Shown here piece after piece: positions 11,411 through 41,479 of a stretch of 64,000 nucleotides of DNA. The position numbers were made by a program, and so were the translations under genes. The notes beneath the pieces were generated by a model, which ran no database searches, was not told where the DNA came from, and saw only the letters and a program-made list of their open reading frames with translations. Source of the DNA: Empedobacter sedimenti (GTDB lineage: Bacteria > Bacteroidota > Bacteroidia > Flavobacteriales > Weeksellaceae); NCBI RefSeq assembly GCF_030005555.1, contig NZ_JASCQG010000002.1:248001-312000 (forward strand), read 5' to 3'. Position 1 is the stretch's first letter. Each line of letters begins with the position of its first letter.

Positions 11411-11736
11411 GAAAAATAAAGTTAAAAGTTGATTATGACGTCCTAAGAGCGTTACTCAACATTACTATTAACGGTCTAAATGCGCCGTTCATTGACAATC
11501 AGGAAGAAAAATTTAAACAATCAGTTAAAGCTGATCTATTTGTTATGTTATCGAAAAAATCGGTGGCTTTAAATCTTAAAAATTTGACTTTAAAATACCA
11601 CGAAGCGTATTTATTACATGATGAAATCGGTAAAATTTCGCACACTTTGGAAGTCTCCAATTATACAAGTCTTAAAGTGCTCAATTTCTATGCAGAATTA
11701 GATCAGTTTTTAACTCAAAATTTACAAATAAGATGA
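11407..11736 (+). CDS. Early phage protein, unknown
   Basis: A 109-residue soluble, helical protein with no recognised family. ATGA overlaps couple it to both neighbours, so it is translated as part of the early operon. Confidence 0.55.
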   Translation: MRKIKLKVDYDVLRALLNITINGLNAPFIDNQEEKFKQSVKADLFVMLSKKSVALNLKNLTLKYHEAYLLHDEIGKISHTLEVSNYTSLKVLNFYAELDQFLTQNLQIR

Positions 11737-12551
11737 AAAATTTAATGGTAACCATTTCAGGTGGACGAAGTTCAGCAATGATGGCTCGTCATATTCAAAC
11801 TTCTGAAAAGTATAAAAATTTTGAAAAGATTTTTGTTTTTTGTAACACAGGTATGGAGCGTCCAGAAACAATTGATTTCTTAAAAAAAATAGAATCAATT
11901 TGGAAAATACCTTTAATAAAAATAGAAGGTATTTATTCTCAAGAAATGGGAAAAGGCGTTGGTTATAGAATTGTCGAATGGAATGATTTAAATATGAATG
12001 CTACGCCATTTTCAGAAGCTATTAAACATAAAAACAAAGGTAAATATGAAGGTTTACCAAACTCAGAAGCACCATATTGTAGTGATATGATGAAAACTAT
12101 TCCATCAAAAAAACTATGCGATGATATTTTTGGAGTAAACAATTATATTAAAGCAATTGGATTTAGGAAAGAGGATATGCCAAAAAGGATTAGTTGGGCT
12201 GAAATATTAGAAGATAAAAAACGTATTTTTCCATTAATCACAGATTTTTATGCGCCGATTTCTCAAAGAGATTTAAATAATTATTTTGACCTCCAACCAT
12301 TCAAATTAGAGTTACATAGTAAGCTAGGAAATTGTGAGTTGTGTTGGAAAAAATCTGATAAAAACTTAATTGAAGCAATAAAATATGGGACAAGATTTAT
12401 TGATTGGTTTAAAACTCATGAATTAATGTATCATAATACTTCATTTCGTGAACGAAAATCTATAAATGATTTAGTTCGATTATCTCAATATCCTCAAACT
12501 TTAGAGATGGATTTTGAAACTATTGAAGACAACTGTATATGTAATTTTTAA
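11733..12551 (+). CDS. PP-loop protein, PAPS-reductase/DndC-like
   Basis: A 272-residue protein of the phosphoadenosine phosphosulfate reductase superfamily. The ATP-binding PP-loop is SGGRSSA at residues 9-15, near the N-terminus as expected. Cys residues follow in APYCSDMMK and in the pair NCELCWKKS, and a CICNF tail ends the protein. Such proteins reduce PAPS or activate sulfur for thiolation of nucleic acids (the DndC family). In a phage with a Mom-like gene a role in nucleic-acid modification or sulfur supply is plausible but not shown. It is coupled upstream by ATGA. Confidence 0.75.
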   Translation: MKNLMVTISGGRSSAMMARHIQTSEKYKNFEKIFVFCNTGMERPETIDFLKKIESIWKIPLIKIEGIYSQEMGKGVGYRIVEWNDLNMNATPFSEAIKHKNKGKYEGLPNSEAPYCSDMMKTIPSKKLCDDIFGVNNYIKAIGFRKEDMPKRISWAEILEDKKRIFPLITDFYAPISQRDLNNYFDLQPFKLELHSKLGNCELCWKKSDKNLIEAIKYGTRFIDWFKTHELMYHNTSFRERKSINDLVRLSQYPQTLEMDFETIEDNCICNF

Positions 12552-13936: not shown

Positions 13937-14881
13937 TTGAAAATGAAAAAAATACTACTCATATTAATTGCCTTTTTATCAGTAAATAGTTTTGCTCAAG
14001 AAAAACCTGACTGGAATTACGATTATAACCAACCAATTAGTGCTTTTTTTCCTCAAACATTACCTGTGTTTACTGAAAAATATTTAGTTACTCAAAATAC
14101 ATATTATGAATTGAATTGGGTAGCAAATAATTTACGTAGATTGATTGAAAAACGTTTAAAATTAAGATTTAATAATGATGAACAAATTTTAAAAGAAAGT
14201 TCATCAACGGATGTATATAAATCATTATCTGGACGTACAATTGATAAATTATCTGTAAAATATAATATTTTTACTTATTATGGTAAATATGTAGTCAGTT
14301 CAATTGAAATTACAGGAAGTCAAGCTTCATTAATAAGTTTATTTGCTTATTTATATAATGTTGATTTACACAAATTGACATCTAAAACTTTTAGTAAAGA
14401 TTTTGCACAAGATCGTGCAGTTTTGAATTTAAATGATAATAAAATTGTTATTAAAAATGATTTATTTAAAACTATATCTGATTTTAAAAATGATTTTGAA
14501 ATAAGAAAAAACAAGTATAAAGTTGATAAATTAGCTTATGATTCAGAATTAGAAAAGGAAAAAAAGGAATATGAATTGGCTCTGATACAACAGAAAAAGG
14601 ATTACGAAGAGTACTATAAAAATAAAATTGAAAAAAGAAAACAAGATTCAATTAGAGATATAGAAATTAAAGCATCTATGCCTAAAGAATCCGTTGGAAT
14701 GTTTTTTTATAAAAAAGTAGGTTCTATCATAAAATTTACAGAAGAACCTACTGATGAAGTTTTAAAAAAGTTAATTGTAGAAAAAGCAAAACAGGATAAA
14801 AATGGAAATTTTGCAGTTTATGTTAAGACAATTACAATTAAAGATGAAAAAACTTATGAAATAAAATTGAATAAACGTTAA
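13937..14881 (+). CDS. Secreted coiled-coil protein, prophage cargo
   Basis: A 314-residue protein with an N-terminal signal peptide (about residues 1-20, ending SFAQ) and a highly charged coiled coil around 180-245 (KKEYELALIQQKKDYEEYYKNK region). I recognise no family. It sits alone between the early terminator and the convergent leftward virion genes; its stop overlaps the end of the 14878 gene by 4 bases. A secreted protein in an isolated unit fits a lysogenic-conversion gene more than a virion part; this is inference. Confidence 0.65.
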   Translation: MKMKKILLILIAFLSVNSFAQEKPDWNYDYNQPISAFFPQTLPVFTEKYLVTQNTYYELNWVANNLRRLIEKRLKLRFNNDEQILKESSSTDVYKSLSGRTIDKLSVKYNIFTYYGKYVVSSIEITGSQASLISLFAYLYNVDLHKLTSKTFSKDFAQDRAVLNLNDNKIVIKNDLFKTISDFKNDFEIRKNKYKVDKLAYDSELEKEKKEYELALIQQKKDYEEYYKNKIEKRKQDSIRDIEIKASMPKESVGMFFYKKVGSIIKFTEEPTDEVLKKLIVEKAKQDKNGNFAVYVKTITIKDEKTYEIKLNKR

Positions 14882-15402
14882 ACGTCATAATCAATTCTTT
14901 CAACCAAATTACCTGAAAGTCGCACTTTGTCATACAAACCCTCATGGATATTTCTTTGAGGGTTTTTTCGTCCCATATACGAGCATTCGTATTCTAAAAT
15001 ATAGATGTCGACAATCGAATCCATTTTATTAAATCCCTCTTTTGTCAATTCTAATTTTCCTGTATGTTCGCTCTCAAAACCATCTAAAACAGTATGTACT
15101 TGGTTGATGTAATTCAAGAATTTTAAACCTAATTCTCGGTTAAGAGAAATGTTTGATGTATCTCGTAATTGCTCATAAGCCAAACGAAAAGTTACAGTAG
15201 CTGTTGGAGGTTCTGTGGTATGATCAATATCCCAATCAACGAAAAGAGAATTATCTCCAAACAAATCAAAATTATCTTCGTCCAAATCTTGACCTGCATA
15301 AATATCAATGTATTTTGGTGGCGAAACACCTTCTTTTATAAATTCATCTAAAACTGATTCAGATTCGAATTTTGCAGTTATTTTATTATAAAAATCTTTC
15401 AT
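14878..15402 (-). CDS. Putative tail-completion protein (gp37-like)
   Basis: A 174-residue protein at the end of the leftward virion block, after gpG. The core (DWDIDHTTEPPTATVTFRLAYE, then RDTSNISLNRELGLKF) looks like a tail terminator or neck protein fold, and the place next to gpG in Mu-like phages is held by gp37-type proteins. The assignment is by position mainly. Confidence 0.45.
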   Translation of the reverse strand: MKDFYNKITAKFESESVLDEFIKEGVSPPKYIDIYAGQDLDEDNFDLFGDNSLFVDWDIDHTTEPPTATVTFRLAYEQLRDTSNISLNRELGLKFLNYINQVHTVLDGFESEHTGKLELTKEGFNKMDSIVDIYILEYECSYMGRKNPQRNIHEGLYDKVRLSGNLVERIDYDV

Positions 15403-15425
15403 TTTAAATGGTGTTTAAACATTGT

Positions 15426-15953
15426 TTAACTATTTAGAATTTTGTCGATTTCACGTTGTGTTAAACGTTCAATTCTTCGCATTAATAAAGCAGACTCTCC
15501 TAAAAATTGACGTTGAGGATAAGTCGTATTCATTTTACGAGTGTGTGCCTTAACAGTTGTCGTCCCATTAGAAACTCGTTTTTTCAGTACACGTCCTGTA
15601 CGTTCGCTTCTTGCACGTTTGGTTACTTTTCGTGTATGAGATTTAACTCGTACAGTTTTATTAATCGTACCACCGTCATTGTGTATTTGTGCATACGGGA
15701 CATCTGTACCAATGGTTACAGAATTACGAGTATAACTTAGTTTACGAATAGATCGTTTTAAACGTCCTGATTTTGTCATTAACGAACCTCTGTCTTTTCG
15801 CTCTCGTTTTTTCCATGCTACACGAGAGCGGTCAACCCAGTTTTTCTGTACAAATCGTTCTTTAGAAAAGTTAACCGCTTCGATAGCTACCATGTTGGGA
15901 AACTTCTCGTAAAGTTTCCCTAAGGCTTTTAATTTTCTTAGATAATCCGACAT
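15426..15953 (-). CDS. Phage virion morphogenesis protein, gpG-like
   Basis: A 175-residue very basic protein of the Phage_tail_S/gpG family (PF05069), which acts in head-tail completion. The family pattern is present: WKKRERKDRG, then TKSGRLKRSI, then VPYAQIHNDGG, and the C-terminal PQRQFLG. It is 2 bases after the tape measure gene on the same strand. Confidence 0.85.
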   Translation of the reverse strand: MSDYLRKLKALGKLYEKFPNMVAIEAVNFSKERFVQKNWVDRSRVAWKKRERKDRGSLMTKSGRLKRSIRKLSYTRNSVTIGTDVPYAQIHNDGGTINKTVRVKSHTRKVTKRARSERTGRVLKKRVSNGTTTVKAHTRKMNTTYPQRQFLGESALLMRRIERLTQREIDKILNS

Positions 15954-15955
15954 AA

Positions 15956-17740
15956 TTAGGCGTTTTCAGCATCAATAATCAATCGCATAAACATTTCCTT
16001 CATCCAAGCTTCAAATTGGTCTTTTGTCATTCCTTTGCCACTCTCATTTTTAATATGAACATCACCTTTGCTAAATGCATCAATTTTGATGTCTATTTTC
16101 TTCACTTGATTAGCAGAACCAGCAACTTTGTTAATATCGTCTTTTGTTTTCTTAGAACCTTTACCTAATTTTTTGCCATTTGCATCAGTAGAACCTCCCA
16201 AAGGTTTTGGTTGATATAAACTTGCTTTTTCTGCTAATGCTTTAAATCCTGCACTATTTTGTTGATCTTCGAGTATTTTTGCCAACATAGGTTTAGTTTT
16301 TCCCGTCTTTTCATCAATTGTTACAAGATTGTTATTATCTCTAATCGATTTGATTTTATTCAAAGCTGAATCTGCAATTCCTGTTGGATCAAATTCAGAA
16401 ATCATTTCAAAAATCTGTTGCAATGGTTTTAAGAATGTGTCCATTAAAACAACACCTATACGTTTTAAACCTCCAATTATTCCATCAGTTTTAAAAGCAT
16501 TTACAATACTATCCCAATTGTTCTTTATAGCCATAAATCCATTTACAACCCAACCAATCGGACCGAGAAATTGTAACAATGCTGCTCCCCATTCGTCATA
16601 TTTGTAAATTGCTATTGCTATCAAAGCAACTAAAGCAACAATTGCAGCTATAATCAATCCAACTGGGTTAGCATACATTGCAACATTAAGTAAAGTTTGA
16701 GCTGTAGCCCAGCCTTTTGTTAATAACGTAGCTATTCCCATTACAGCATTATAAGTTCCAATACCTGTAGCCAAACCTAAAATTAATGTTGCTAAAATAG
16801 AGACATAGGGATTTCCATTTCTAATTTCAGTAAAAAACCAAATAAACGGTTGTATCATCCCTGTTGTAACATCTGCTAAAAACATTATAGATGCTGTTAT
16901 ATTATCCATTCCGATTGCTTGAATAAGATTAGAAAAACTATCAACTATACCTGCTTTTAATTGTCCAAGAGCTCCCTCAAATGTTTTAGTAGATTTAGCA
17001 GCCTCTACAGCAATTGGATCAGTTCCTAAATCTAACAAAGCCTTATTAAATTCGATTGCTGATATTTGACCTTCTTCCATTGCTTGCCTAAAATTACCAG
17101 TAAATGCACCATTTTTCCGTAAAGCTTCTTGTATTTTTCCACTCGCTCCTGGAATAGCATTTGCTAACTGATTCCAATCTTGAGTAACCAATTTACCCGC
17201 TCCATTGGCTTGGGTTAAAACTAATGCAACCGACTTATAGGTGTCAGCATTTCCTCCAGCAACCGCATTCAGATTTCCTGCTGCCTGTGTAAGAGCTGAA
17301 TAATTTTGTACACCATTTGCAGCTAATTGTGCTGTTGTATTGGCAATTGTTTGCAGATCGTACACCGTATCATCCGCATACTTTTTTACTTCGCCACGAG
17401 CTTTTGCAATAGCAGATGAATTGAACCCACCAAATTGCATAGTTTGTTCAAACTTGGTTAATGAATCTACTGCATCAATAGCTTCGCCACTCAATTCTTT
17501 AATTCCGTTAACAGCCATCGACATAACTTCCATACCTATACCAGCACCTAAGCCAAAATTGAAACTATTGTTTAAATTTTCAATTTGTGATGTATCAATA
17601 TTTGGTAATCGTAACGAGTTTAATCTTTGTTGTGCCGAATTAACTGTAGAATTAATTCTGTTTTGTGCTCTACTCAGCGCATTATTAAACAGTCTATCAG
17701 ATAGTTCTAATAATATTTCTAATTTACTTCTACCTGCCAT
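15956..17740 (-). CDS. Tail tape measure protein
   Basis: A 594-residue tape measure protein, which sets tail length and leaves through the tube at DNA ejection. The N-terminal 280 residues hold the tape-measure domain (TIGR02675 type), with KFEQTMQFGGFNSSAIAKARGEVKKY and the QDWNQLANAIPGASGKIQEAL segment. A hydrophobic membrane-spanning region follows at about 305-385. The C-terminal part is charged. At roughly 1.5 A per residue the tail would be near 90 nm. It is unusual that this gene is on the strand opposite the tail tube and chaperone genes. Confidence 0.85.
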   Translation of the reverse strand: MAGRSKLEILLELSDRLFNNALSRAQNRINSTVNSAQQRLNSLRLPNIDTSQIENLNNSFNFGLGAGIGMEVMSMAVNGIKELSGEAIDAVDSLTKFEQTMQFGGFNSSAIAKARGEVKKYADDTVYDLQTIANTTAQLAANGVQNYSALTQAAGNLNAVAGGNADTYKSVALVLTQANGAGKLVTQDWNQLANAIPGASGKIQEALRKNGAFTGNFRQAMEEGQISAIEFNKALLDLGTDPIAVEAAKSTKTFEGALGQLKAGIVDSFSNLIQAIGMDNITASIMFLADVTTGMIQPFIWFFTEIRNGNPYVSILATLILGLATGIGTYNAVMGIATLLTKGWATAQTLLNVAMYANPVGLIIAAIVALVALIAIAIYKYDEWGAALLQFLGPIGWVVNGFMAIKNNWDSIVNAFKTDGIIGGLKRIGVVLMDTFLKPLQQIFEMISEFDPTGIADSALNKIKSIRDNNNLVTIDEKTGKTKPMLAKILEDQQNSAGFKALAEKASLYQPKPLGGSTDANGKKLGKGSKKTKDDINKVAGSANQVKKIDIKIDAFSKGDVHIKNESGKGMTKDQFEAWMKEMFMRLIIDAENA

Positions 17741-17770
17741 ATTAATTTATTTTGTATATTTGTATCAAGA

Positions 17771-17830
17771 AAAGGTTAAACCCGATAGGCTCACTGCTTG
17801 CAAAGTCTTCACCGTTGGGGTTTAACCTTT
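17771..17830. terminator. 13-bp hairpin between MuF and tape measure genes
   Basis: Perfect arms AAAGGTTAAACCC (17771-17783) and GGGTTTAACCTTT (17818-17830) enclose a 34-base loop. Both strands follow the stem with T-rich sequence. On the minus strand it sits at the stop of the MuF-like gene and forms the leader of the tape measure gene. On the plus strand a perfect -7 box, TATATTTG, lies just upstream at 17755-17762, so a short antisense RNA ending at this stem is possible. Confidence 0.65.
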
Positions 17831-19150
17831 TTCTTTTATTAATAATCCGCTTCTTGTAGTTTTTTCCTCTTTCATTTCAAACCATGTTTTTATTTCAAGA
17901 TTTGTATTATTCATTTCACATAAAACAACAATTGTTTTATTCTTATAAAACTTAATGTATCTTAAGGTTTGATTTTTTTTGTTATTTTCTCTACTTAACC
18001 AAACTTCATCAGGTTTAGAAATTATATTTTTAATATGAGGAACTAATTGATGACGTTCTTCTTTGATATAATGTCCTTTAGTATGTCTTTTAAACACTTC
18101 TTCAGGAAGAATTAATTTTCGTTCAAAATAATCTTCAAACCCCATGAAATTTTTATTTCCTTTAGTTTTTCCTGTTACTTTGAATAATTCACTTACATTA
18201 TCTTCTGTAATTGATTTGTCCAGTTTAATTGGTTTTAAATCTTTTTTAAACTTATCATAAGCTTCTAAGTGATATTTATCAAAAGACATATCATTGATTT
18301 TTTTTGACATTCCTTTTATATCAGCATAAAATTGTTCAGTTGTAAATACTTTTCTTAGATCACCTCTATTTATAGCGAATTGAGAATCCTTCCATTTACC
18401 ATCTGAACGCATCATTTTTTCTACAGCTTCATTTCCTGATGTCACATGATCTGGTTTACTTGGCAATTGAATCATTTCACAACGACAACCGTAACCATTC
18501 GGTGGAAAAAGTTTCATTGCTTTTTTATCACTTAAATTAAAAACTAACCCTTCTAATTTTTGATGTTGACTTCTAACTCTTGAATCTCCAACAGTCTGAT
18601 ATTGTACAAAAGGAAAATCATCTATTTCTGACATAAATTTATTATATGCAGCTGCGTTTTGTCCTACCGAAATAGACAGATTATATTCAGCTAATAACCA
18701 TTCTTCGTTAAATTCGGATGTTTCTTTTAAAGCTAATTTTTTGAAATCCTCAAATGACCTGATTTGCAACTTCTCTTTATCAATGAGTAAATCTGTCATT
18801 GCAGCTAAACGAGCCTCGGTTTTACTTTCAGCAAATTCAAACAAATTGAACTCCATCATTTGATACGCCAAAGTATCGGGAGTGTTCCAACCCGAAGTAA
18901 CGCCGTAACCTTGTTTTAAACCTTCTACTAAATGCAAGGCTTCTTTTGCAATCAATCGCCCTTGTGTGCCTAAACTATCCTCATCGTTATAAGTTTGTTT
19001 TGCAAGCTCTTCGTTCAGTCTATCCAAAAACGAAGGTTCATCGCCATTCGCTACAGGATGAGTTCCACAACAATTATGAATAGTCGGGACGTTTCCAACT
19101 TGCAACAGTTTTACCTGTATTCTTTTGCTTGGGATTGTTGTTTTCTTCAT
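17822..19150 (-). CDS. MuF-like head morphogenesis protein with PBECR-like toxin domain
   Basis: A head morphogenesis protein of the Mu gpF/SPP1 gp7 family, about 442 residues from the ATG chosen here. An earlier in-frame ATG at 19210 exists, and both starts overlap the portal gene, so the true start may be a non-ATG codon nearer 19073. The MuF core is recognised by SRVRSQHQKLEG followed by KLFPPNGYGCRCEM. The last 110 residues (from EEVFKRHTKGHYI to TWFEMKEEKTTRSGLLI) fit the phage Barnase-EndoU-ColicinE5/D-RelE-like nuclease (PBECR) group. MuF fusions of this type are known as polymorphic toxins of temperate phages. No immunity gene is evident. Confidence 0.75.
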   Translation of the reverse strand: MKKTTIPSKRIQVKLLQVGNVPTIHNCCGTHPVANGDEPSFLDRLNEELAKQTYNDEDSLGTQGRLIAKEALHLVEGLKQGYGVTSGWNTPDTLAYQMMEFNLFEFAESKTEARLAAMTDLLIDKEKLQIRSFEDFKKLALKETSEFNEEWLLAEYNLSISVGQNAAAYNKFMSEIDDFPFVQYQTVGDSRVRSQHQKLEGLVFNLSDKKAMKLFPPNGYGCRCEMIQLPSKPDHVTSGNEAVEKMMRSDGKWKDSQFAINRGDLRKVFTTEQFYADIKGMSKKINDMSFDKYHLEAYDKFKKDLKPIKLDKSITEDNVSELFKVTGKTKGNKNFMGFEDYFERKLILPEEVFKRHTKGHYIKEERHQLVPHIKNIISKPDEVWLSRENNKKNQTLRYIKFYKNKTIVVLCEMNNTNLEIKTWFEMKEEKTTRSGLLIKEKG

Positions 19151-20387
19151 CTTGTTGATTATTTTGATTAGTGATGATTTGGCGTTGTTTTTTACCTGTA
19201 ATTGGCACATTGAAAGTTGTAGATAGCCATTCAGGGTCTACTTCATGATCTTGTAAAATTCCTTGAACGATATTCCAATATTGTTGCAAGTCGATTTCCT
19301 CTTTCGATTCTATCCATTCTAAAACATCATCGTTAGATAATTCAGAATATCCCTGTGCAATTAATAATGGAATTAACTCATCATTTACATTGAAAGATAT
19401 ATCACGTCTATCTGCTTGTGATATTTTGAAATCTAACGATCTTTCGTGTACTTCTGTTTGCGAACGATTCGCTGCATTTGCTGTTAATGTATTTGATCCA
19501 ACAATTACAGCAGAAATCTCATTACTGTTTTGTTCAATGAATTTTGAATAAACATTGTAAGCATCGGTTCTATTGGCTTCATCAAATTTGATGGTTGTAC
19601 CTTCTGGAAAAACTCCGATACTTGCTTCTGCTAATGCCAATAATTGTTCTTCAACTTTATCTAAATGCTCGTTATCACTTCGATTAGTTGTTGCAGAAAC
19701 TAATGGCATTCCAAATTTTTCGCAAAACTCTGCCCATGATTGCGCAACATTTCTTTTCCAAATGATGTTCGGAATTATATTATTAATCAATCCTAAATCA
19801 TCATCACCCAATTGTAAAACCCAATTTTTATGCATTGGGTCTGTGTAGTCAATAAATGTTTGAGAATTTAAATCGGGATAAATACGTTTATAATTAGTTG
19901 CTGTATTTCGTTTTGGAATTTCTCTAAATTCAATTTTATGTCCATCAAAATTCTGAAATTCGATAACTTTTGCACCTCTTACTATTGCGGTTGTGTATAA
20001 AGTCAGATAATCAAAAAACCATTTTTGTTGAAATAATTCAGTCGCTTGTTCGTTTATTTCGCCTGTTCGTTTATTTCTTATTTGATAACCTGTACTTAAA
20101 GTTGCAGAATAACGCAATTGTTCTTGTGCTTTCAATGTTGCATCAATACCTAAATCATCAATCAAATCGGCGTAAGTATTAAATCTCGGATGCTCGTGTA
20201 AACTTACAAGCATTAAAGACTGTCTCCATTTATCAATATCTTTTCGAGATATATCTTTGAATGATTTTGCAATTTGGTCGATTACACGATCAATATTTTG
20301 GTTTTTTCCACTTCTTTTTCGTGGAATAGTTGAAGCTATGTTTTTAGGCGTTTTTGACGCGTTAAATAAATTATTAAATAATTTCAT
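19074..20387 (-). CDS. DUF935 portal protein (Mu gp29-like)
   Basis: A 437-residue portal protein that forms the ring at the capsid vertex through which DNA enters and leaves. It matches the DUF935 family of Mu-like phages: HPRFNTYADLID near the N-terminus, EFREIPKRN and the KFGMPLVSATTN block in the middle, and GSNTLTANAANRSQTEVHERS near 300. The C-terminal 40 residues are a low-complexity Asn/Gln/Lys tail that overlaps the MuF gene. Confidence 0.9.
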   Translation of the reverse strand: MKLFNNLFNASKTPKNIASTIPRKRSGKNQNIDRVIDQIAKSFKDISRKDIDKWRQSLMLVSLHEHPRFNTYADLIDDLGIDATLKAQEQLRYSATLSTGYQIRNKRTGEINEQATELFQQKWFFDYLTLYTTAIVRGAKVIEFQNFDGHKIEFREIPKRNTATNYKRIYPDLNSQTFIDYTDPMHKNWVLQLGDDDLGLINNIIPNIIWKRNVAQSWAEFCEKFGMPLVSATTNRSDNEHLDKVEEQLLALAEASIGVFPEGTTIKFDEANRTDAYNVYSKFIEQNSNEISAVIVGSNTLTANAANRSQTEVHERSLDFKISQADRRDISFNVNDELIPLLIAQGYSELSNDDVLEWIESKEEIDLQQYWNIVQGILQDHEVDPEWLSTTFNVPITGKKQRQIITNQNNQQDEENNNPKQKNTGKTVASWKRPDYS

Positions 20388-20442
20388 CGTTAAAATTTTT
20401 AGAATAGCTTAAAAGCGAGTTTAAACACAGTTTAAACAATTA

Positions 20443-20871
20443 TTAATACTTATGATTTTGTTGTTTGTATCTGCTCACAATACGAATGCTTGATTTAGCC
20501 TTGCCTGTATCTTCATCAACAATTTTTGGTAAATCTGCACTTGCTTCTCCTTTTGATATAGATTTTAACCATTCCAATGCATCAGCATAACGGTCTGAAC
20601 GATGTTGAGGAATTTTATTAGGAGCTAAACTTGTGTACAAATGATACAAAGCACAATCAATCGTTATCATTACAATAAATGAATTTCTTTCTGTTCCTTG
20701 CGCTGAAAAGATTTTTACAGTATCATAAAAACCATTGATGTAATTTTTGATTTGATCAATCGCCATTTGTTCTGCACCAGCTAATTTTGTATCAGAATAA
20801 TTTTCAACTAATATTCCTTTGATTTCTTTGCGAATTAAAACGCTGTAATCATCTTCATTAATAAAACTCAT
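20443..20871 (-). CDS. gp36-like protein (DUF1320)
   Basis: A 142-residue protein of the Mu gp36/DUF1320 family, a head-to-tail connector candidate. It starts with the typical MSFINEDDY, and has the family's helical core, ending with RYADALEWLKSISKGEASADL. It is 1 base after the terminase gene on the same strand. Confidence 0.8.
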   Translation of the reverse strand: MSFINEDDYSVLIRKEIKGILVENYSDTKLAGAEQMAIDQIKNYINGFYDTVKIFSAQGTERNSFIVMITIDCALYHLYTSLAPNKIPQHRSDRYADALEWLKSISKGEASADLPKIVDEDTGKAKSSIRIVSRYKQQNHKY

Positions 20872-20872
20872 T

Positions 20873-22444
20873 TTAAAATTTGTTTTTTTTGCGTTGGTTT
20901 ATCTTTTTTCTTGAAACAGTACGAGCCTTGAATTTTTCAATAAATGATGCTTTATTAACTTCTGCCATTCCTGATTGTAAAAAATCGGGTCCGTCATCAT
21001 TTGCTGTACTACCTTTTTCGAATGCGTACAATTGATCTTCCATTGTAGCGTAATCGTTGGACTCTTTAAATTCTTCGTTAAAGAATACATTTAGTCTTTC
21101 GAAGAAACCAGCCATCGATTCGATACGGTCATATTTATTAATCTTTGATTTCTTATCAGCAACTACAGGAATGTAGTAACCTCGTTCCTCTCCAACTAAG
21201 TCAAAATCGTTAACAAACTCATCCATTGCGAAAAGTCCTTCAATCAAATATTTGATGTTGTATTTTGAAAGATTATGTTTCTCATATAAATCATAAAGCC
21301 ATTCTGCAACTGCTTTACGAGTAGATTGTCTAAGAAAACAGAATATTAAATGATACTCTTTGTCTTTTCGCCCAATTAATCCCATTCCTTTGTAATCTCC
21401 TGCGTCTTTGTAGGATAAATCGCCATAAAAACAAAGCGCATCATACTGATCGAACCGTAAACGTTTTTTGTATTGGATAAATTCAGGTTTAAAAATTTCA
21501 CCATCTTGTATATGTTTGTGCATATACTCACGCATAAATGAGCGGTACGGTGTATTATCATACTTTTGTCGCCAATATTCTGCTGATGTTTTTTCTTTCC
21601 AATTCGGTTCAAATGTTACTAATGATTTTACAGCTGCAACTGTTAATATAAAATGTTTAACCTTTCGACCAGCTTGTTTTGCTTTTTCGTTGATACGGTT
21701 AAATTCTTGTTTAAGCTGGTTGATAATTGTGTTTTTGTGGAAATTGTTATTTGCTACAACAAAGCGTTTTCTTTTCGCACCTTCATCAAAAGTACCTTGT
21801 AAATCTTCCCAAACCCACTCATAAGCTCTACGAGATAATTTCTCGTTGTTACATAGTTTCTTCGTGTCAACATCATCAACCACAATATAATCTGGACGTT
21901 GTGCACCTTCACGAAGTCCACGAACCGACTGACGAAAACCACGAGAAACAAAACGAACACCGTCAATGGTAGAAAAATCTCCCTCAGCCCAATCTCCATA
22001 CTTAAAGCGTTTACCGTAATCATTGATTAATCTTGGATTATGCTGTAATTGAGCTTGAATATCTGAAATCAGTTTTTTTGCCTTATCAACGGTTTCACCA
22101 ATCAATAACATGAAAAACAAATCCTTTTTCACTAAATACAAATACAAAGGAATTCCCATATCCAAATGCACGGATTTAGCACCTGATCGATAGATTTCAC
22201 CTAATAATGAGCCTTCAGGATTATCAATAATTAACTTGGCTAACTTCTTATGAAACCAAGCACATTTTGATTTAGCATACATTTGAAAATGATATTCAAA
22301 CCAAGCGACATAATCCTTTTCAAGTTCATTGATTCGTTTGATTTTTTCTTTTGGCGTTTCATTGATGTTGACAGTTGCCGATTGCTCAATTTTCCGACAA
22401 TGTTCCTCATACTGTTTAAGTATTTTTTCAAAACTTTTTGTCAT
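20873..22444 (-). CDS. Terminase large subunit (Mu gp28-like)
   Basis: A 523-residue packaging motor: ATPase plus endonuclease. The ATPase part shows a Walker A-like RSGAKSV at 86-92 and Walker B YIVVDDVD at 186-193. The RNase H-like nuclease half begins with FYGDLSYKDAGD, placing the first metal Asp at 342. The length fits the family. Its start overlaps the stop of the small subunit (ATGA-type contact at 22444). Confidence 0.9.
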   Translation of the reverse strand: MTKSFEKILKQYEEHCRKIEQSATVNINETPKEKIKRINELEKDYVAWFEYHFQMYAKSKCAWFHKKLAKLIIDNPEGSLLGEIYRSGAKSVHLDMGIPLYLYLVKKDLFFMLLIGETVDKAKKLISDIQAQLQHNPRLINDYGKRFKYGDWAEGDFSTIDGVRFVSRGFRQSVRGLREGAQRPDYIVVDDVDTKKLCNNEKLSRRAYEWVWEDLQGTFDEGAKRKRFVVANNNFHKNTIINQLKQEFNRINEKAKQAGRKVKHFILTVAAVKSLVTFEPNWKEKTSAEYWRQKYDNTPYRSFMREYMHKHIQDGEIFKPEFIQYKKRLRFDQYDALCFYGDLSYKDAGDYKGMGLIGRKDKEYHLIFCFLRQSTRKAVAEWLYDLYEKHNLSKYNIKYLIEGLFAMDEFVNDFDLVGEERGYYIPVVADKKSKINKYDRIESMAGFFERLNVFFNEEFKESNDYATMEDQLYAFEKGSTANDDGPDFLQSGMAEVNKASFIEKFKARTVSRKKINQRKKNKF

Positions 22445-22911
22445 TATTCCTCTTGATTAATTCGGTATTGTAAAAAGCGTTTATGCCATTCTGTAAATTC
22501 AATTGCTAAGCGTGGTTCTTGGTCTGCCATCCAATTATCAAACTCTTTGAAAACCGAAAAAATGACTTGTACAGAGGTACGAGATGAAAGGGTTTCAATT
22601 ACTTTACTAACTTTTGCCAAAGCATCTGCGTCAATAGTAGAGTTTTCTCCACTTGCAATACTTTTTAGCTCTTTCATCAAGACTTCTTTAATCTTATGAG
22701 GAGCTGCTAAAAATTCATTTCGTTTATTATCCCAGTTCCCTTCTTTGCGCCAACGTGAAAGCGTTTGTTCAGAAACTCCAACCAATGGAGATATTTCTTT
22801 TGCAGTTAGTCCATCTTCTATAAATAGTTTTTCTGCAAGCTCTTTTTTTGCTTTGTTATTGATATTTCCACCTCCTTTAATTACCTCCATTTTATTGGCT
22901 TTTATTAACAA
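22444..22911 (-). CDS. Terminase small subunit (gp27/DUF1804-like)
   Basis: A 155-residue DNA-binding packaging subunit. The N-terminal helix-turn-helix is clear (AKEISPLVGVSEQTLSRWRKEGNW), as in DUF1804/gpP-like small terminases; the rest is helical and should form the oligomer. It is the first gene of the leftward virion block and is coupled to the large subunit. An ATG at 22890 (MEVIKGGG) is an alternative start. Confidence 0.82.
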   Translation of the reverse strand: MLIKANKMEVIKGGGNINNKAKKELAEKLFIEDGLTAKEISPLVGVSEQTLSRWRKEGNWDNKRNEFLAAPHKIKEVLMKELKSIASGENSTIDADALAKVSKVIETLSSRTSVQVIFSVFKEFDNWMADQEPRLAIEFTEWHKRFLQYRINQEE

Positions 22912-35578: not shown

Positions 35579-36025
35579 ATGAATACAGGAAAAAAAGGAC
35601 TTGAACTAATCAAGAAATACGAAGGTTTTTTTGCAAAACCTTACTTAGACCCTATTGGAATCCCAACCATTGGGTACGGTGCGACTTATTATCCAAACAA
35701 AGTAAAAGTAACAATGAAGGATAAGCCGTTGACAGAAAAAGAAGCATCTGACTTATTAGTTCAGATGTTGAAAGTGTATGAGAACCAAGTTGCATTATTG
35801 GTAACAAAACCAATCAATCAAAATCAATTTGATGCGTTGGTAAGTTTTACATACAATCTCGGAGCGACTAATCTGAGTAAATCTACTTTATTAAAAAAAG
35901 TCAATAAAAATCCAAATGATCCAACTATTGCAAATGAATTTATGCAATGGGTGAATGCTGGTGGTAAAAAATTTAATGGACTTGTAAAACGTAGAAAAGA
36001 TGAAGCAGCTTTGTATTTTTCTTAG
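35579..36025 (+). CDS. GH24 lysozyme (endolysin)
   Basis: A 148-residue T4-type lysozyme that cuts the glycan chains of peptidoglycan. The catalytic triad has exact T4 spacing: Glu15 (KKYEGF), Asp24 (YLDPIG) and Thr30 (PTIGYG). The RRKDEAALY end is typical. There is no signal peptide, so export needs a holin. It overlaps the spanin gene by 26 bases. Confidence 0.92.
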   Translation: MNTGKKGLELIKKYEGFFAKPYLDPIGIPTIGYGATYYPNKVKVTMKDKPLTEKEASDLLVQMLKVYENQVALLVTKPINQNQFDALVSFTYNLGATNLSKSTLLKKVNKNPNDPTIANEFMQWVNAGGKKFNGLVKRRKDEAALYFS

Positions 36026-36584
36026 TGTAGTGTTTTTACTTCTTGCGTGTGCAACGAAGCGAAAAACAAAGGAGGTCGAGAAAACGGAAATCAAGACAGA
36101 AAATCTTATAAATAACGATTCTGTTTTCCAATTGAAATCAAAAGTTTCTAAACTTGAAACGAATCAAACTTTTAACGAGTTTGAAAGCGTTCTAAAAGCT
36201 CTTAATGTTCAATATGATGGCGAACAAGGTAATGATTTGAAAGTTATCTTAAATCGAACAGAAAACGGTACTGAGTTAAATGTTTCAGGTAAAGGTAAAG
36301 CGAACTATAATGAGCAATCCGAAAAAACGTATAATTTAACAAAGTCAGAATTTTTATTGATTTATGATAGTCTCAGAAAATTTGAGTTAGCTCAAAATAA
36401 AATGCAACGAGATCAATTGTTTTTAGATCATTTTAAATCAAATACCGAAAAGGATAAAACAGATATATCAATTTGGATTTACGTGATTATTGGTTGTGTC
36501 CTCTGTTTGGTTATTTTTCTTATTTGGATAACAATATTAATTAAAAACTATATAAATAAAGTAATCGCTTTTGGAGTGAAATAA
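36000..36584 (+). CDS. Unimolecular spanin-like lipoprotein
   Basis: A 194-residue protein with a lipoprotein signal (lipobox LLAC, Cys17) at the N-terminus and one strong transmembrane segment at the C-terminus (about 156-182, IWIYVIIGCVLCLVIFLIW). The charged periplasmic middle has helical stretches. This outer-membrane-anchor plus inner-membrane-anchor layout is that of a unimolecular spanin, which fuses both membranes in the last step of lysis. It overlaps the lysozyme, as spanin genes often do. Confidence 0.7.
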   Translation: MKQLCIFLSVVFLLLACATKRKTKEVEKTEIKTENLINNDSVFQLKSKVSKLETNQTFNEFESVLKALNVQYDGEQGNDLKVILNRTENGTELNVSGKGKANYNEQSEKTYNLTKSEFLLIYDSLRKFELAQNKMQRDQLFLDHFKSNTEKDKTDISIWIYVIIGCVLCLVIFLIWITILIKNYINKVIAFGVK

Positions 36585-36587
36585 AAG

Positions 36588-36697
36588 TCCTCCGCAAAAA
36601 TTAAATATCTCACCTTTCAATTTTTAGCGTATAAAAACCCCTACAGCGGAGGACATAAACCTTCTTTGTAGGGGTTTTTATAATTGAAAAGTGAGAA
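36588..36697 (+). promoter_or_regulatory. Structured leader with crossing helices before the Mom-like gene
   Basis: Three pairs of inverted repeats: A GTCCTCCGC (36588-36596) with A' GCGGAGGAC (36647-36655), 9 bp; B (36609-36623) with B' (36683-36697), 14 of 15 bp; and C ATAAAAACCCCTAC (36632-36645) with C' GTAGGGGTTTTTAT (36669-36682), 14 bp. B and C nest into one long hairpin, while A' sits in its loop and pairs with A outside, so the helices cross. C-C' also reads as a terminator (G-rich arm then TTTTT). It starts 4 bases after the spanin stop and ends 19 bases before the mom start. Confidence 0.8.
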
Positions 36698-36715
36698 TAC
36701 AAATTTAATAAAAAA

Positions 36716-37447
36716 ATGGAGAAAATAATAGAAACAAAGAATTTAGGGAAATTAATTATTAAACCAATTGAAAAACAAATAGCTAAAGAATTAATTATTA
36801 AAAATCATTATTCTCATAAGTGGAATGATGGCGGTTTTGGAGTTTTTAATATTGGGATTTTTGATTTTGAAAATCCTGAAAAATGCCTTGGTTGTGCTGT
36901 ATATGGATATATGAAGAATTTAAAAGCTAAATTGTTTTCTCATCCAAACCCTGATGCTTGGATGATTGAATTAAATAGAATGTGGATAGATGATAGTTTA
37001 GGTCATAATGCAGAGAGTCTTTTAATTGCTCATTCCATCAAAATGATAAAACAATTAGATAAAAATGTCGTAGCTATTCAATCATTTGCAGATGGACGGT
37101 TAGGCTGTGGAACTATATATAAAGCGTCAAACTTTAAGTATTATGGCTATCATTTTACAAGGTTTCTAAAACATAAAATAACAGGTGAAATTTCGCACGA
37201 ACAGAATTTCACAAATAGCACATCTAAAAAGCGTTTTATACGTGGTAATATTGGCTTTTTATTGGAAGATTGGGAAGTATTCCGTGTAAAAACATACCGA
37301 TATATCTATCCATTGGATAAAAAAGTAACATTTAGATTTAAACAAGAACCCTATCCAATATATGAGAAAGGTCAAGAACCTATCGAATGGAAAAGGAATT
37401 TATCACTTCTAAAATTAAGACTTCAAGCCCTTATTAGCGAATTGTAA
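36716..37447 (+). CDS. Mom-like adenine modification protein
   Basis: A 243-residue protein resembling phage Mu Mom, which turns adenine in phage DNA into N6-carbamoylmethyl-adenine and so protects it from restriction. The motifs are NHYSH at 30-34, IELNRMWIDD near 84-93, and the SFADGRLGCGTIYKASNF block at 123-140 with YYG after it. It is the last phage gene, the same place that mom has in Mu. No com-like zinc-finger gene is next to it; a structured leader is there instead. Confidence 0.82.
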   Translation: MEKIIETKNLGKLIIKPIEKQIAKELIIKNHYSHKWNDGGFGVFNIGIFDFENPEKCLGCAVYGYMKNLKAKLFSHPNPDAWMIELNRMWIDDSLGHNAESLLIAHSIKMIKQLDKNVVAIQSFADGRLGCGTIYKASNFKYYGYHFTRFLKHKITGEISHEQNFTNSTSKKRFIRGNIGFLLEDWEVFRVKTYRYIYPLDKKVTFRFKQEPYPIYEKGQEPIEWKRNLSLLKLRLQALISEL

Positions 37448-37476
37448 ACATAACATCCCAATTACTATATAAAGTT

Positions 37477-37550
37477 AGTGATTAATAGTGATTTGACCAA
37501 ATAAATAAGTGTAAAAAAGTGATATTTTTTGAGTATTTTTGTAAGGTGAT
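37477..37550. repeat. Phased AGTGATT repeats
   Basis: AGTGATT at 37477 and 37487, AGTGTAA at 37508, AGTGATA at 37518 and GGTGATT near 37545. The spacings (10, 21, 10 and about 27 bases) keep the copies near the same helical face, upstream of the -7 box at 37534. They may be activator sites or phage-end sites. Confidence 0.4.
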
Positions 37551-37668
37551 TGAGTATAAGTAAACGGGTTAAAAGCTGCGTGGTTGCAAACATGAAAATC
37601 CCTACATCCAAAACTTCAGCTATATTCTAATGAAAAGGCTATTAGACTGCGTTTAATAGCCTTTTACG
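37534..37668 (+). ncRNA. Candidate small RNA 1
   Basis: A -7 box TATTTTTG (37534-37541) is followed by about 90 bases with no conserved gene and then a 12-bp perfect terminator (AAAAGGCTATTA, 37633-37644, with TAATAGCCTTTT, 37654-37665). A 12-codon frame from the ATG near 37598 (MKIPTSKTSAIF) could be a leader peptide instead. No -33 TTTG box is at the usual place. The predicted transcript is about 37548-37668. Confidence 0.4.
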
Positions 37669-38008: not shown

Positions 38009-38890
38009 TTATCCATTTACAGCTTCTACATTGTCAACAACATCAGGCATCATTTGTTTCAAAATTCCTTCAATACCATTTTTTAATGTTGCTGTAGAAG
38101 AAGGACAACCAGAACAAGCACCTTGTAATAACATTTTTGCAGTGCGAGTTTCTTCATCAAATTCGATTAACTCGATATTTCCACCATCATTTGCAACAGC
38201 TGGTTGAACGTATTCGTCTAAAATAGCTTTGATTTGTTGTTCTACAGAAGAAAATTCTTCGGCAGATTTTACAACAACATGCTCAGGAGCTTCAGTTGTA
38301 AATTCATAAAACTCTTCAAAAACTGGACCACCAGCTTGTAAATAGTTGGTAATAAATGATCGAACATCCATCATCCAAAGTGACCAATCTTCTGATTCGT
38401 TTTTTGTAACCGAAACATAATTATCAACAATAAAAACCTCTTCGATAAAAGGATATTCTTGGTAAAGTGCAACAGCTAAAGGAACTCCAGCAGCTTTTTC
38501 TTTCGATTTTATTTCGATAATCTCTGGCGCTAACATTGTATTCGAAACAAATTTCATCGCAGCAGGATTTGGCGTCATTTCTGCATAAATAGAAACTGGC
38601 GCTTTTTTCATCGGAGCTAAAATTGCGTTTTCTTCTAAATGATCGTTAATAATCTCTTTCAAATCCTCTACAACATCAGCCCATTCAATACCGTCAATTT
38701 TTTCGATTGCAACAAAATTTGCTGTGATAAAAATTTTGTTGATGAATGGTATCGTTAATAAAACTTGTGCTAAAGGAGATTCGGCAGCTGTAGAATCTTT
38801 GTCAAATTCTACACCACCTTGTGTTAAAGTCTCGTCGCAAACGAACTTCATCACATTATTATTGGGTGTAATTTCTTCTTGTACTCTCAT
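38009..38890 (-). CDS. NifU-like Fe-S cluster scaffold with two Nfu N domains
   Basis: A 293-residue iron-sulfur scaffold. Two copies of an Nfu N-terminal domain come first (each begins with a T-P-N-x-x-x-M-K-F pattern, near residues 7 and 102). A C-terminal NifU domain with the cluster-binding CSGCPSS motif (near 258-264) follows. It should carry Fe-S clusters to apoproteins in the cytoplasm. The start at 38890 is preferred over 38908 because a -7 box (CAAAAATA on the plus strand, 38898-38905) lies directly before it, which implies a nearly leaderless transcript. Confidence 0.85.
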   Translation of the reverse strand: MRVQEEITPNNNVMKFVCDETLTQGGVEFDKDSTAAESPLAQVLLTIPFINKIFITANFVAIEKIDGIEWADVVEDLKEIINDHLEENAILAPMKKAPVSIYAEMTPNPAAMKFVSNTMLAPEIIEIKSKEKAAGVPLAVALYQEYPFIEEVFIVDNYVSVTKNESEDWSLWMMDVRSFITNYLQAGGPVFEEFYEFTTEAPEHVVVKSAEEFSSVEQQIKAILDEYVQPAVANDGGNIELIEFDEETRTAKMLLQGACSGCPSSTATLKNGIEGILKQMMPDVVDNVEAVNG

Positions 38891-39597: not shown

Positions 39598-40686
39598 ATG
39601 TATTTTAATACGAAATTGTTCGTATCAACATTATTAGCTCAATCTCTTTTGTTTACTTCTTGTATAAAAGATGAGGCAGCGGATACTGATGCTGATATTT
39701 TAGAAGCTCAGATTCCTTCAGAATATTTAAAAACAGAGCCGATTATAACGAATACTTCTGTAGAATTTAAAGTAAAATCGACTATAGATTTGACAAAACA
39801 ATCACCAATATTTATTATTTCTCCTAATGCAACAATTTCTCCTGTAAATGGAACGGAAAGGGATTATAGTAAAACACAATATGTTACTGTAACAGCAGAA
39901 GATATGCGTTGGTCAAAAGTATACTCGGTTAATTTTACAGTAGATGATCTTAACCATTATTATAATTTCAATCAAGCAGAACTAACAGATAGAGACCGCT
40001 ATTATCGTTTTTATGAAGTTGGGGCAAATGGAAATAAAATTTATGAATGGGATAGTGGTAATCAAGGATACGCTACAATTGCAGGAAGTACGCCACCAGA
40101 AAATTATCCTACATCTGTAACGCAAGGTAGAAAAGGAGGAAAAGCTGTAAAGATGGTTACAGTATATACAGATAAAATGGGAGAGAGTATGGGAAATCCT
40201 ATTGCAGCAGGAAATTTATTTATTGGAACTTTTAAACTAAATATTTTCAATCCTCTTAAGTCTACTCGTTTTGGGTTACCATTTGATGGTGGTTTACCAA
40301 AAAAATTGCGTGGTGTTTATACGTATAAAGCTGGAGATGTTGTTACAGATAAAAATTATAAACCTATACCAGGAAAAAAAGATGATTTTATTATTTATGC
40401 CATTTTATTTGAAAGTAGAGCAAAAGATAATTATTTAGATGGTACACATAAGTTTATGGATAGCAGAAATGTAGCAATTGCAAAAATACAACCTGAACAA
40501 CGTAAAGAAACTACAAAATGGACAACATTTGAAACTCCTTTCGAACTAGTAAAAGGAAAAACATTTGATCCAACAAAAGAATACATGCTTACTATTGTAA
40601 TGTCATCTAGTATTAATGGAGATGAATTTGAAGGTGCAGTTGGTAGTACTTTAGTTGTAGACGAAATCGAATTATTGTTAGATTAA
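39598..40686 (+). CDS. PCMD-domain lipoprotein
   Basis: A 362-residue lipoprotein (signal with lipobox FTSC, then IKDEAADTD) of the PCMD family, a putative carbohydrate-binding domain of Bacteroidetes. The C-terminal 230 residues hold the jelly-roll-like part (NHYYNFNQAELTDRDRYYRFYEVG to TLVVDEIELLLD). The ATG at 39598 is preferred because it starts the signal peptide directly. It is followed 1 base later by a beta-barrel protein, so the two likely form a surface pair. Confidence 0.78.
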   Translation: MYFNTKLFVSTLLAQSLLFTSCIKDEAADTDADILEAQIPSEYLKTEPIITNTSVEFKVKSTIDLTKQSPIFIISPNATISPVNGTERDYSKTQYVTVTAEDMRWSKVYSVNFTVDDLNHYYNFNQAELTDRDRYYRFYEVGANGNKIYEWDSGNQGYATIAGSTPPENYPTSVTQGRKGGKAVKMVTVYTDKMGESMGNPIAAGNLFIGTFKLNIFNPLKSTRFGLPFDGGLPKKLRGVYTYKAGDVVTDKNYKPIPGKKDDFIIYAILFESRAKDNYLDGTHKFMDSRNVAIAKIQPEQRKETTKWTTFETPFELVKGKTFDPTKEYMLTIVMSSSINGDEFEGAVGSTLVVDEIELLLD

Positions 40687-40687
40687 A

Positions 40688-41479
40688 ATGTTGTTTATGA
40701 GTAAAATATTACCAAAAATAGGATTCTTTTTCTTGTTAAGTAACATCGTTTTTTCGCAATCTACAATAGAGGATAACGAAATAAAGTCTGGTTTTTTCAA
40801 TGATTTAGATTATCAAATAAGAGGTCAATTTAGTATAGGAGGAAGTACTCCACTTGGTATTCCTGTAGAGATAAGAGAGTTGAATAGATATAATCCATCT
40901 CTACAATTGGGAGTAGAAGTAAATAGTACAAAATGGTTGAAGAATAATCCAAAAATTGGAATTAGAGGAGGTTTGCGTATTGAGCAGAAAGGAATGAAAA
41001 CAGATGCTCGAGTTAAAAATTATTATACTCAAATTGATGGTGAAGGTGGTAAACAAACAAATGGTTATTTTACTGGAAATGTTAATACAACAGTGAGTAA
41101 TACATATACAACATTACCAGTTTTAATCGTTTACAATGCTTATCCTCGTTGGAATTTTTATGGAGGAGTTTATCTTTCTGCAACTATCGAACAAAAATTT
41201 ACTGGATATGTTTATGATGGTGTTTTACGAGAAGGACTACCAACAGGAACTCCAGTTGTATTTGAAGGTTCTGCAAAAGGAGAATACGATTTTTCAGATG
41301 AAATGAGAAGAATGCAATGGGGATTTGATTTAGGTGCTGAATATAAAATGAAATCACATTTAAGATTATTTGCCGAATTAAATTGGAATGCAAATCAATT
41401 ATTTAAACACGATTTTGACGCAATATCGTTCAAAATGTATAATATTTATGGCAATTTTGGTTTTGGTTATCAGTTTTAA
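40688..41479 (+). CDS. Outer-membrane beta-barrel protein
   Basis: A 263-residue protein with a signal peptide ending VFSQ and alternating amphipathic strands with an aromatic C-terminus (NIYGNFGFGYQF), typical of an outer-membrane barrel inserted by BAM. A second ATG at 40697 (MSKILPK) is an equally good start. It follows the PCMD lipoprotein by 1 base. Confidence 0.75.
   Translation: MLFMSKILPKIGFFFLLSNIVFSQSTIEDNEIKSGFFNDLDYQIRGQFSIGGSTPLGIPVEIRELNRYNPSLQLGVEVNSTKWLKNNPKIGIRGGLRIEQKGMKTDARVKNYYTQIDGEGGKQTNGYFTGNVNTTVSNTYTTLPVLIVYNAYPRWNFYGGVYLSATIEQKFTGYVYDGVLREGLPTGTPVVFEGSAKGEYDFSDEMRRMQWGFDLGAEYKMKSHLRLFAELNWNANQLFKHDFDAISFKMYNIYGNFGFGYQF

Follow-up and report, generated by a model that had tools for sequence, protein, structure and literature searches.

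The 64,000-nucleotide stretch of Empedobacter sedimenti DNA analysed here (the window) contains a transposable, Mu-like prophage, recognised by reading its open reading frames (ORFs), with a repressor, a transposase, a MuB-like ATPase and structural genes (Table 1). By the same reading its head-gene block (14878-22911) lies on the minus strand, opposite to the early and tail genes, and the early region also holds a protein with a PAPS-reductase domain (11733-12551, PF01507), which might be sulfur- or modification-related. A lysozyme gene and an unnamed gene precede a DNA-modification gene that the initial annotation called Mom-like, and which is a true member of the Mom family, at 207.7 bits against a PF25680 cut-off of 27.1. 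The 131-bp gap between the unnamed gene and the Mom-family gene is occupied by a set of inverted repeats; the stop codon of the former ends 2 nt before strand A of these repeats, and the final bases of the minus-strand element described below overlap it.

Table 1. Genes of the prophage and parts of the element, in window positions; 5' and 3' arms refer to the minus-strand RNA
Feature	Position	Strand	Remarks
Repressor	4917-5789		ORF reading
Transposase	6208-8385		ORF reading; rve match 29.8 bits, slightly below the Pfam cut-off of 32.6
MuB-like ATPase	8376-9326		ORF reading
Lysozyme	35579-36025		PF00959
Unnamed gene	36000-36584	plus	No family match; immediately upstream of the element
Whole element	36574-36707	minus	Match of covariance model R1 (47.0 bits, E 6.7e-8), from the -7 box to beyond the U-run
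U-run	36579-36586	minus	TTTTATTT, directly after A; terminator-like 3' end
Helix strand A	36587-36595		GTCCTCCGC on plus, GCGGAGGAC on minus; 3'-terminal strand of the minus RNA
Helix strand D	36596-36605	minus	3' arm of hairpin D
Helix strand B	36608-36622	minus	3' arm of the outer helix
Helix strand D'	36616-36625	minus	5' arm of hairpin D
Helix strand C	36630-36652	minus	3' arm of the long inner hairpin
Helix strand A'	36646-36654		GCGGAGGAC on plus, GTCCTCCGC on minus; hairpin tip, partner of A
Helix strand C'	36660-36682	minus	5' arm of the long inner hairpin; includes the A'' purine motif
Helix strand B'	36682-36696	minus	5' arm of the outer helix
-7 box	36700-36707	minus	TAAATTTG, fits TAnnTTTG, Bacteroidota type
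Mom-family gene	36716-37447	plus	PF25680, phrog_1384; DNA-modification cassette of this prophage

The three inverted repeats that had been noticed, with lengths given as 9, 14 and 14 bp, are indeed there, as the perfectly complementary A:A' (9 bp), B:B' (15 nt, 93% complementary) and C:C' (23 nt, 87%), with A beginning at 36587 rather than 36588. An additional crossing pair, D:D' (10 nt, 90%), was missing from that list; part of strand B lies in the loop of hairpin D, so that D crosses B. The structure exceeds chance on either strand, as the initial annotation had held for the repeats: the fold of the plus strand has an energy of -49.1 kcal/mol, whereas 200 shuffled versions average -22.8 (sd 3.5; z -7.5), and the minus-strand fold of the element has -43.9 kcal/mol (z -6.3). 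The outer helix ends (B', 36696) 19 nt upstream of the Mom-family ATG at 36716, which is unpaired in the plus-strand fold; a 180-nt fold adds a weak 5-bp helix at the ATG.

On the minus strand, the element begins with a match to TAnnTTTG, which we take to be the vegetative -7 box of Bacteroidota, and ends with a run of U. The covariance model R1, built in the minus orientation from helices B and C only (alignment A4, below), found the element on this strand and, at E ≤ 1, nothing on the window's plus strand. A repeated element of the host was ruled out, the sole other match in the genome being the element's own inverted self-match. A known RNA family was likewise rejected at the Rfam gathering level: release 15 gave no family at the gathering cut-off in the window or in 16 element loci, and such matches as there were stayed below threshold.

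Mom relatives were taken from viral contigs, species genomes and phage records. Comparison of their upstream regions, which the initial annotation had suggested, revealed the identical order of pairing segments in quite different sequences. A structure-only scan of 61 distinct mom loci (≥50% identity), over 1.5 kb of upstream sequence each, matched 46, with A at the 3' side of the minus strand, and 44 of these score at least 30, compared with 0, 1, 0, 0 and 1 matches at this level in five shuffled sets of 61 regions (0, 4, 1, 1 and 6 matches at ≥27). Within the 46, L233 scored 27.5, inside the shuffled range, and L018, which has neither a descriptor nor a model match, is probably a false positive. 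Nine of the 15 loci without a structure-only match have a model or descriptor match elsewhere (L083, L089, L092, L093, L094, L014, L127, L206 and L340; L127 only at E 0.0035), and L126, L100-L103 and L164 have none of the three. Mom relatives below ~50% identity gave no descriptor match above 29.0, the background level.

The same scan is an independent test of the promoter. The TAnnTTTG motif stands at the start of helix B in 38 of the 46 matches, against 31 of 4339 shuffled 20-nt windows, a T-rich tail follows A in 42, and on the plus strand no TAnnTTTG occurs within 60 nt before A in any of the 46. In the opposite orientation 17 of the 61 loci match, 14 of them overlapping the minus-type place, and the window itself scores 39.8 in the plus orientation versus 40.8 in the minus; the symmetry of the hairpin permits a third helix on the plus strand in some loci, the window included. 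By position, the window's plus-strand match is underlain by a perfect 8-bp pairing between the plus-strand hairpin tip and the start of the mom coding sequence (36662-36669 with 36734-36741), which is either chance or a plus-strand fold.

Helices B, C and A in alignment A4 (ten rows) are paired in 94.9% of 370 cells, and both sides have changed in 20 of 37 pairs, a figure reached by none of 500 shuffles; when partners are shifted by 1-3 columns, pairing falls to 33-46%. Since the rows of A2 and A4 were chosen by a script that required A, B and C, this pairing is partly selection, and the structure-only scan is the unbiased test. Helix D was not a criterion; all its cells in A4 are paired, with both sides changed in 3 of 7 pairs. 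RNAalifold on 38 sequence-aligned rows found only helix A (compensatory changes in 5 of 8 pairs), as B and C are too variable to be aligned by sequence. Two further alignments were set aside: A3, whose C arms did not line up in register, and A5, which mixed strands. R1 produced 74 matches over 82 sources. Of these, 21 lie on the plus strand, coincide in place with the minus-strand matches and are weaker; the best of them reached 49.1 bits, compared with 145.8 on the minus strand of that locus. Little unpaired sequence is conserved in the element except the short purine motif.

The counts that follow refer to 84 distinct elements, which carry the -7 box by construction. Two matches in L057 (28.5 and 29.0), a second one in L091 and a plus-strand match in L263 (32.5) without an adjoining gene were omitted before counting, and L014, L015, L016, L083 and L089 were added by hand. 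For the question of strand, G·U and A·C wobbles were counted in 78 fitted elements (all except L095 and the five added by hand), with G·T and A·C scored equally. Read on the minus strand, the ratio of G·U to A·C is 50:9 in helix A and 32:6 in helix D (found in 74 elements), 20:23 in helix B, which is strand-neutral, and 34:54 in helix C, which leans to the plus strand. The crossing helices A and D thus belong to the minus strand, and the long hairpin is maintained in both; with no minus-strand bias in B and C, it may also act in the plus-strand mRNA. The wobbles separate the strands better than does the orientation of the structure-only matches. A crossing helix had been proposed for the mom leader RNA; the crossing exists, and its conservation is that of minus-strand pairs.

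At least five T occur in the 8 nt after A in 75 of 78 elements, and TTG is weakly enriched at -33 distance (21 of 84 elements versus 11.4 expected). On the plus strand, TAnnTTTG is rarer than expected, both inside the element (1 of 78, 6.25 expected) and over the 150 nt that precede A (1 of 78, 5.75 expected), so that the cassette, as judged from this vegetative-type motif, seems reliant on read-through from upstream. In L013, L016 and L097 a G-run was seen by eye ahead of an A-rich stretch upstream of A; it was not counted, and a local plus-strand pairing with A (GGGG..GCCCC), a fifth pairing, is possible there.

Regarding the genes behind the element, the first recognisable one is Mom in 44 of the 84 cases and another gene, for the most part of DNA-modification type, in 40, namely a thymidylate-synthase (TS) gene in 9, D12a in 7, Mor-like, C5 and D12b in 6 each, GNAT/ATPase in 4 and N6/N4 in 2. 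A mom-specific leader is rejected by these counts, and so is the proposal of the initial annotation that a cis-acting RNA replaces Com at mom. Its remark that no com gene is present holds to the extent that the Com Zn-ribbon (PF10122) has no match in the window's own genome; as 14 control genomes are silent too, this is no proof of absence. The cassette families comprise D12 adenine methyltransferases (PF02086), a second type with a weaker D12 match, the thymidylate-synthase family (PF00303), C5 methyltransferases (PF00145), N6/N4 methyltransferases (PF01555, with a ParB-like start by ORF reading), an ATPase/GNAT protein recognised at Pfam cut-offs and followed in some loci by a formyltransferase (PF00551), and a small Mor/HTH-like protein that stays below the cut-off. 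From their place, the TS-like, GNAT/ATPase and formyltransferase proteins would also modify DNA.

The cassette gene lies downstream, in one orientation, in 84 of 84 elements, and in the upstream stretch in none; given that these loci supplied the probes and that many of the downstream stretches are short, the figure is a sign of consistency and not an unbiased rate. The first cassette-protein match starts at most 52 nt from the -7 box in 66 of the 84, and only 42 share their first gene with the nearest-neighbour element. No Mom occurs in the downstream stretch covered for 36 elements (the shortest being 552 nt), some of which may have it further on, because the full 3.5 kb is covered in only 4 of the 36. 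Two pattern scans that used neither promoter nor gene, followed by a descriptor script requiring the promoter, brought the set, L191 and L192 included, to 49 distinct elements; the locus contains mom in 12 of these. L191 and L192 are the two carriers from an R1 search of 395 genomes at class level; D12-like methyltransferase genes follow their elements, and no mom was found in the carriers' 17-19 kb loci (L193, L194), which makes them clear Mom-less carriers. By annotation to the end of the record, hankyphage, Peternella_1 and BK068092 are Mom-less as well. Absences in the R1 genome searches (395 genomes at class and 14 at genus level) mean nothing, since these searches missed the window's own genome.

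Some of the cassette proteins deserve mention in their own right. The ATPase/GNAT protein stands in L345 (3361-4961), L283, L297 and L312 at the position of Mom or a methyltransferase in sister phages, is followed by a formyltransferase-like protein in L345 and L283, and has homologues in Pseudomonas and Gordonia phages; such loci are candidates for a DNA modification of unknown kind, of formyl or acyl type. Its small neighbour in BK068092 is annotated as 'acr candidate'. Proteins of the thymidylate-synthase family occur in L217, L329 and L347 (ThyA of hankyphage), and several loci pair them with a divergent D12-like methyltransferase, a combination possibly serving pyrimidine hypermodification rather than nucleotide supply.

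Among phage records, hankyphage jmh43_hp (PV107405) carries the element at 40543-40693 on the minus strand (81.0 bits), between the Avd gene of its diversity-generating retroelement (DGR) and hp44-ThyA-DNA methyltransferase, and Winogradskyella phage Peternella_1 (MT732475) carries it at 38606-38753, also minus (51.7 bits), before an adenine methyltransferase. Elizabethkingia phage TCUEAP3 has a descriptor match only, without an R1 match. Reverse transcriptase genes lie upstream of the element in L115, L124, L192 and L220 by ORF reading and in hankyphage by annotation; in the window, the stretch before the element has none, and the idea of a retron or DGR part was rejected. An annotated short CDS of BK068092.1 (33150-33263, L345 3085-3198), which overlaps the element there (L345 3001-3138), is unlikely to be a gene. 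The element is absent from one record each of Moraxella and Pseudomonas phages with related genes, from an Akkermansia phage record with related genes (where a descriptor match elsewhere, at 25.5, is at background level) and from the 3.8 kb examined of Bacteroides phage BF1-TP2 (L352), which has two DNA methyltransferase genes. Mom genes without such repeats, which the initial annotation had named as evidence against its proposal, exist in part of the family: descriptor and model searches found no element at the mom loci L018, L019, L021, L100-L105 and L126, and L105 is a Sphingobacteriales metagenome-assembled genome at 43% identity. Carriers and element-less loci together indicate that the element marks a phage lineage, not every modification gene of Bacteroidota.

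Near-identical phage backbones carry different cassettes, and they part at the element. L253 (D12a) and L237 (GNAT/ATPase, then C5) are 94.6% identical over 3.0 kb, up to a point 9-11 nt beyond the -7 box at its outer edge, and have different cassettes from there on; between them helix B shows a compensated change, TCTGACACTA/TAGTGTCAGA versus TCTCACACTA/TAGTGTGAGA. The elements of L265 (D12b) and L145 (Mom) are 96% identical, and identity ends at +27 to +31. BLAST finds a single direct stretch in common, the element (about -134 to -4), in the pairs L331/L146 and L334/L109. Porphyromonas phage BK068096 (mom) shares 89.5% identity over 3.1 kb, running into the element, with BK068092 (ATPase/GNAT, formyltransferase), and 88.4%, through the element as far as the -7 box, with PP754929; beyond these points, among the loci compared, only the last 91-93 nt at the right end match. 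The identity of BK068096 and BK068092 in 60-nt windows drops from 0.93-1.00 before the element to 0.67 and 0.62 within it, a divergence that is not unique, as a stretch ~1 kb upstream is equally low (0.48-0.70).

Taken together, a unit of ~135 nt heads exchangeable DNA-modification cassettes, which complete phage records place at the right end, in Bacteroidota transposable phages. As to its identity, the sequences make it very probable that the unit is a conserved structured RNA of the minus strand. On balance, we favour with moderate confidence a doubly pseudoknotted noncoding RNA that runs antisense to the cassette leader and restricts late read-through; the mechanism of repression by this RNA is offered more tentatively.

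In this proposal, minus-strand transcription would start just left of the -7 box (36707-36700), head away from mom and stop at the U-run (36586-36579), giving a transcript of ~120 nt. The RNA would fold into a long hairpin in which B encloses C; A, at the 3' end, would pair into the hairpin tip (A') and D would cross B, the pseudoknots thus locking both ends. The cassette, lacking a vegetative-type promoter motif of its own, would depend on late read-through, and in the lysogen the minus-strand RNA, complementary to the cassette leader, and its opposed promoter would restrain that read-through. Late transcription would then overrun the minus-strand RNA, and the enzymes would be made only once phage DNA is made. 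The hairpin would act in both strands, the pseudoknots would stabilise the minus-strand RNA, and a plus-strand terminator at the C hairpin with its U-run may coexist with the antisense control. We infer the production of the minus-strand RNA, its ends and its antisense or interference role from the features of the locus. A promoter of its own, opposing the target leader, is present at the level of the motif only, in the 38 of 46 structure-only matches given above. Counting against an antisense role, the predicted RNA stops short of the ribosome-binding region, and simple antisense RNAs have no need of conserved pseudoknots.

Those two features keep in view a trans-acting structured RNA with a job of its own, for example in overcoming host defence, which would merely be co-located with the anti-restriction locus at the right end and to which the locked ends would give a long life. 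Conservation of the crossing helices restricted to the minus strand, the promoter motif and the U-run all suit such an RNA, as does the possibility that the element persists while the adjoining cassette changes, the nearest neighbour sharing its first gene in only 42 of 84 cases. However, a cassette gene lies downstream, pointing away from the element, in all 84, its first protein match no more than 52 nt from the -7 box in 66, and conserved unpaired sequence is scant apart from the purine motif; we consider this explanation unlikely. We see still less reason to expect a plus-strand leader, in which the C hairpin and a U-run would terminate late transcription before the cassette and the crossing pairs would be an alternative fold. 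The terminator that the initial annotation had placed at C:C' does find some echo, in that the 8 nt following the GC core of C contain at least five U on the plus strand in 59 of 78 elements, versus 42 of 78 on the minus; moreover, the C wobbles lean to the plus strand (34:54), the plus strand lacks a vegetative-type promoter motif, and 14 of 61 loci allow a third helix there at a coinciding position. Yet a consensus terminator scan of window positions 36000-37600 found none, the wobble bias of A and D is that of the minus strand, and the promoter box lies on that strand. Least of all do we expect a DNA site, either a folded single strand or an anchor for cassette recombination like a cassette-border site: exchange does break in or at the edge of the element and G·T wobbles suit single-stranded DNA equally, but promoter box and U-run call for no DNA role, and homologous exchange is possible through the common sequence alone.

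The minus-strand antisense RNA that we favour would answer a need of these phages, whose DNA-modification enzymes must stay silent in the lysogen and be on for the phage's own DNA. With one RNA architecture placed before many unrelated modification genes, the anti-restriction gene could be swapped and its control kept. It is quite possible that the element represents a new class of phage RNA, a single doubly pseudoknotted architecture with stems free to vary, serving across the phylum as control unit or RNA partner of interchangeable modification cassettes in place of gene-specific regulators such as Com. In practical terms, the gene behind an element becomes a candidate modification gene, which offers a handle for finding unknown systems, and hankyphage, which is common in gut Bacteroides, is a carrier for which RNA-seq already exists (B. 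thetaiotaomicron jmh43, ArrayExpress E-MTAB-14274); according to PMC12135933, the read counts took strand into account.

Among known systems, CopA/CopT and RNA-OUT are antisense RNAs encoded in cis, whose hairpins match between the sense and antisense strands. The element resembles them in its opposed promoter motif, the complementarity of its RNA to the leader and the long hairpin in both strands, and differs in that its crossing helices are conserved on one strand only and that one architecture precedes many unrelated genes; repression, moreover, is here what we infer. The attC-type cassette border of integrons is likened to the element solely because cassettes swap there. Modification genes at the right end are known from transposable phages of Bacteroidota (fF4-like, PMC7761591; hankyphage, PMC12135933 and PMC6199706), the same kind of phage and the same genome end, and the accessible portions of these three papers make no mention of an RNA element of this kind; nor did any paper about such an RNA appear by title or opening of the abstract in a literature search whose scope left out most subscription papers and bioRxiv preprints. 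Closest in setting is com-mom of Mu, also a transposable phage with an RNA structure just upstream of mom and a modification wanted late. According to the available part of PMC6483171, the mom start codon of Mu lies within an inhibitory stem that Com opens; here, in contrast, the outer helix ends 19 nt before the ATG and leaves the start codon outside, the crossing pairs belong to the minus strand, and another gene than mom comes first in 40 of 84 elements. Whereas Mu has a protein, Com, fitted to one mRNA, these phages appear to have one RNA architecture standing before many genes.
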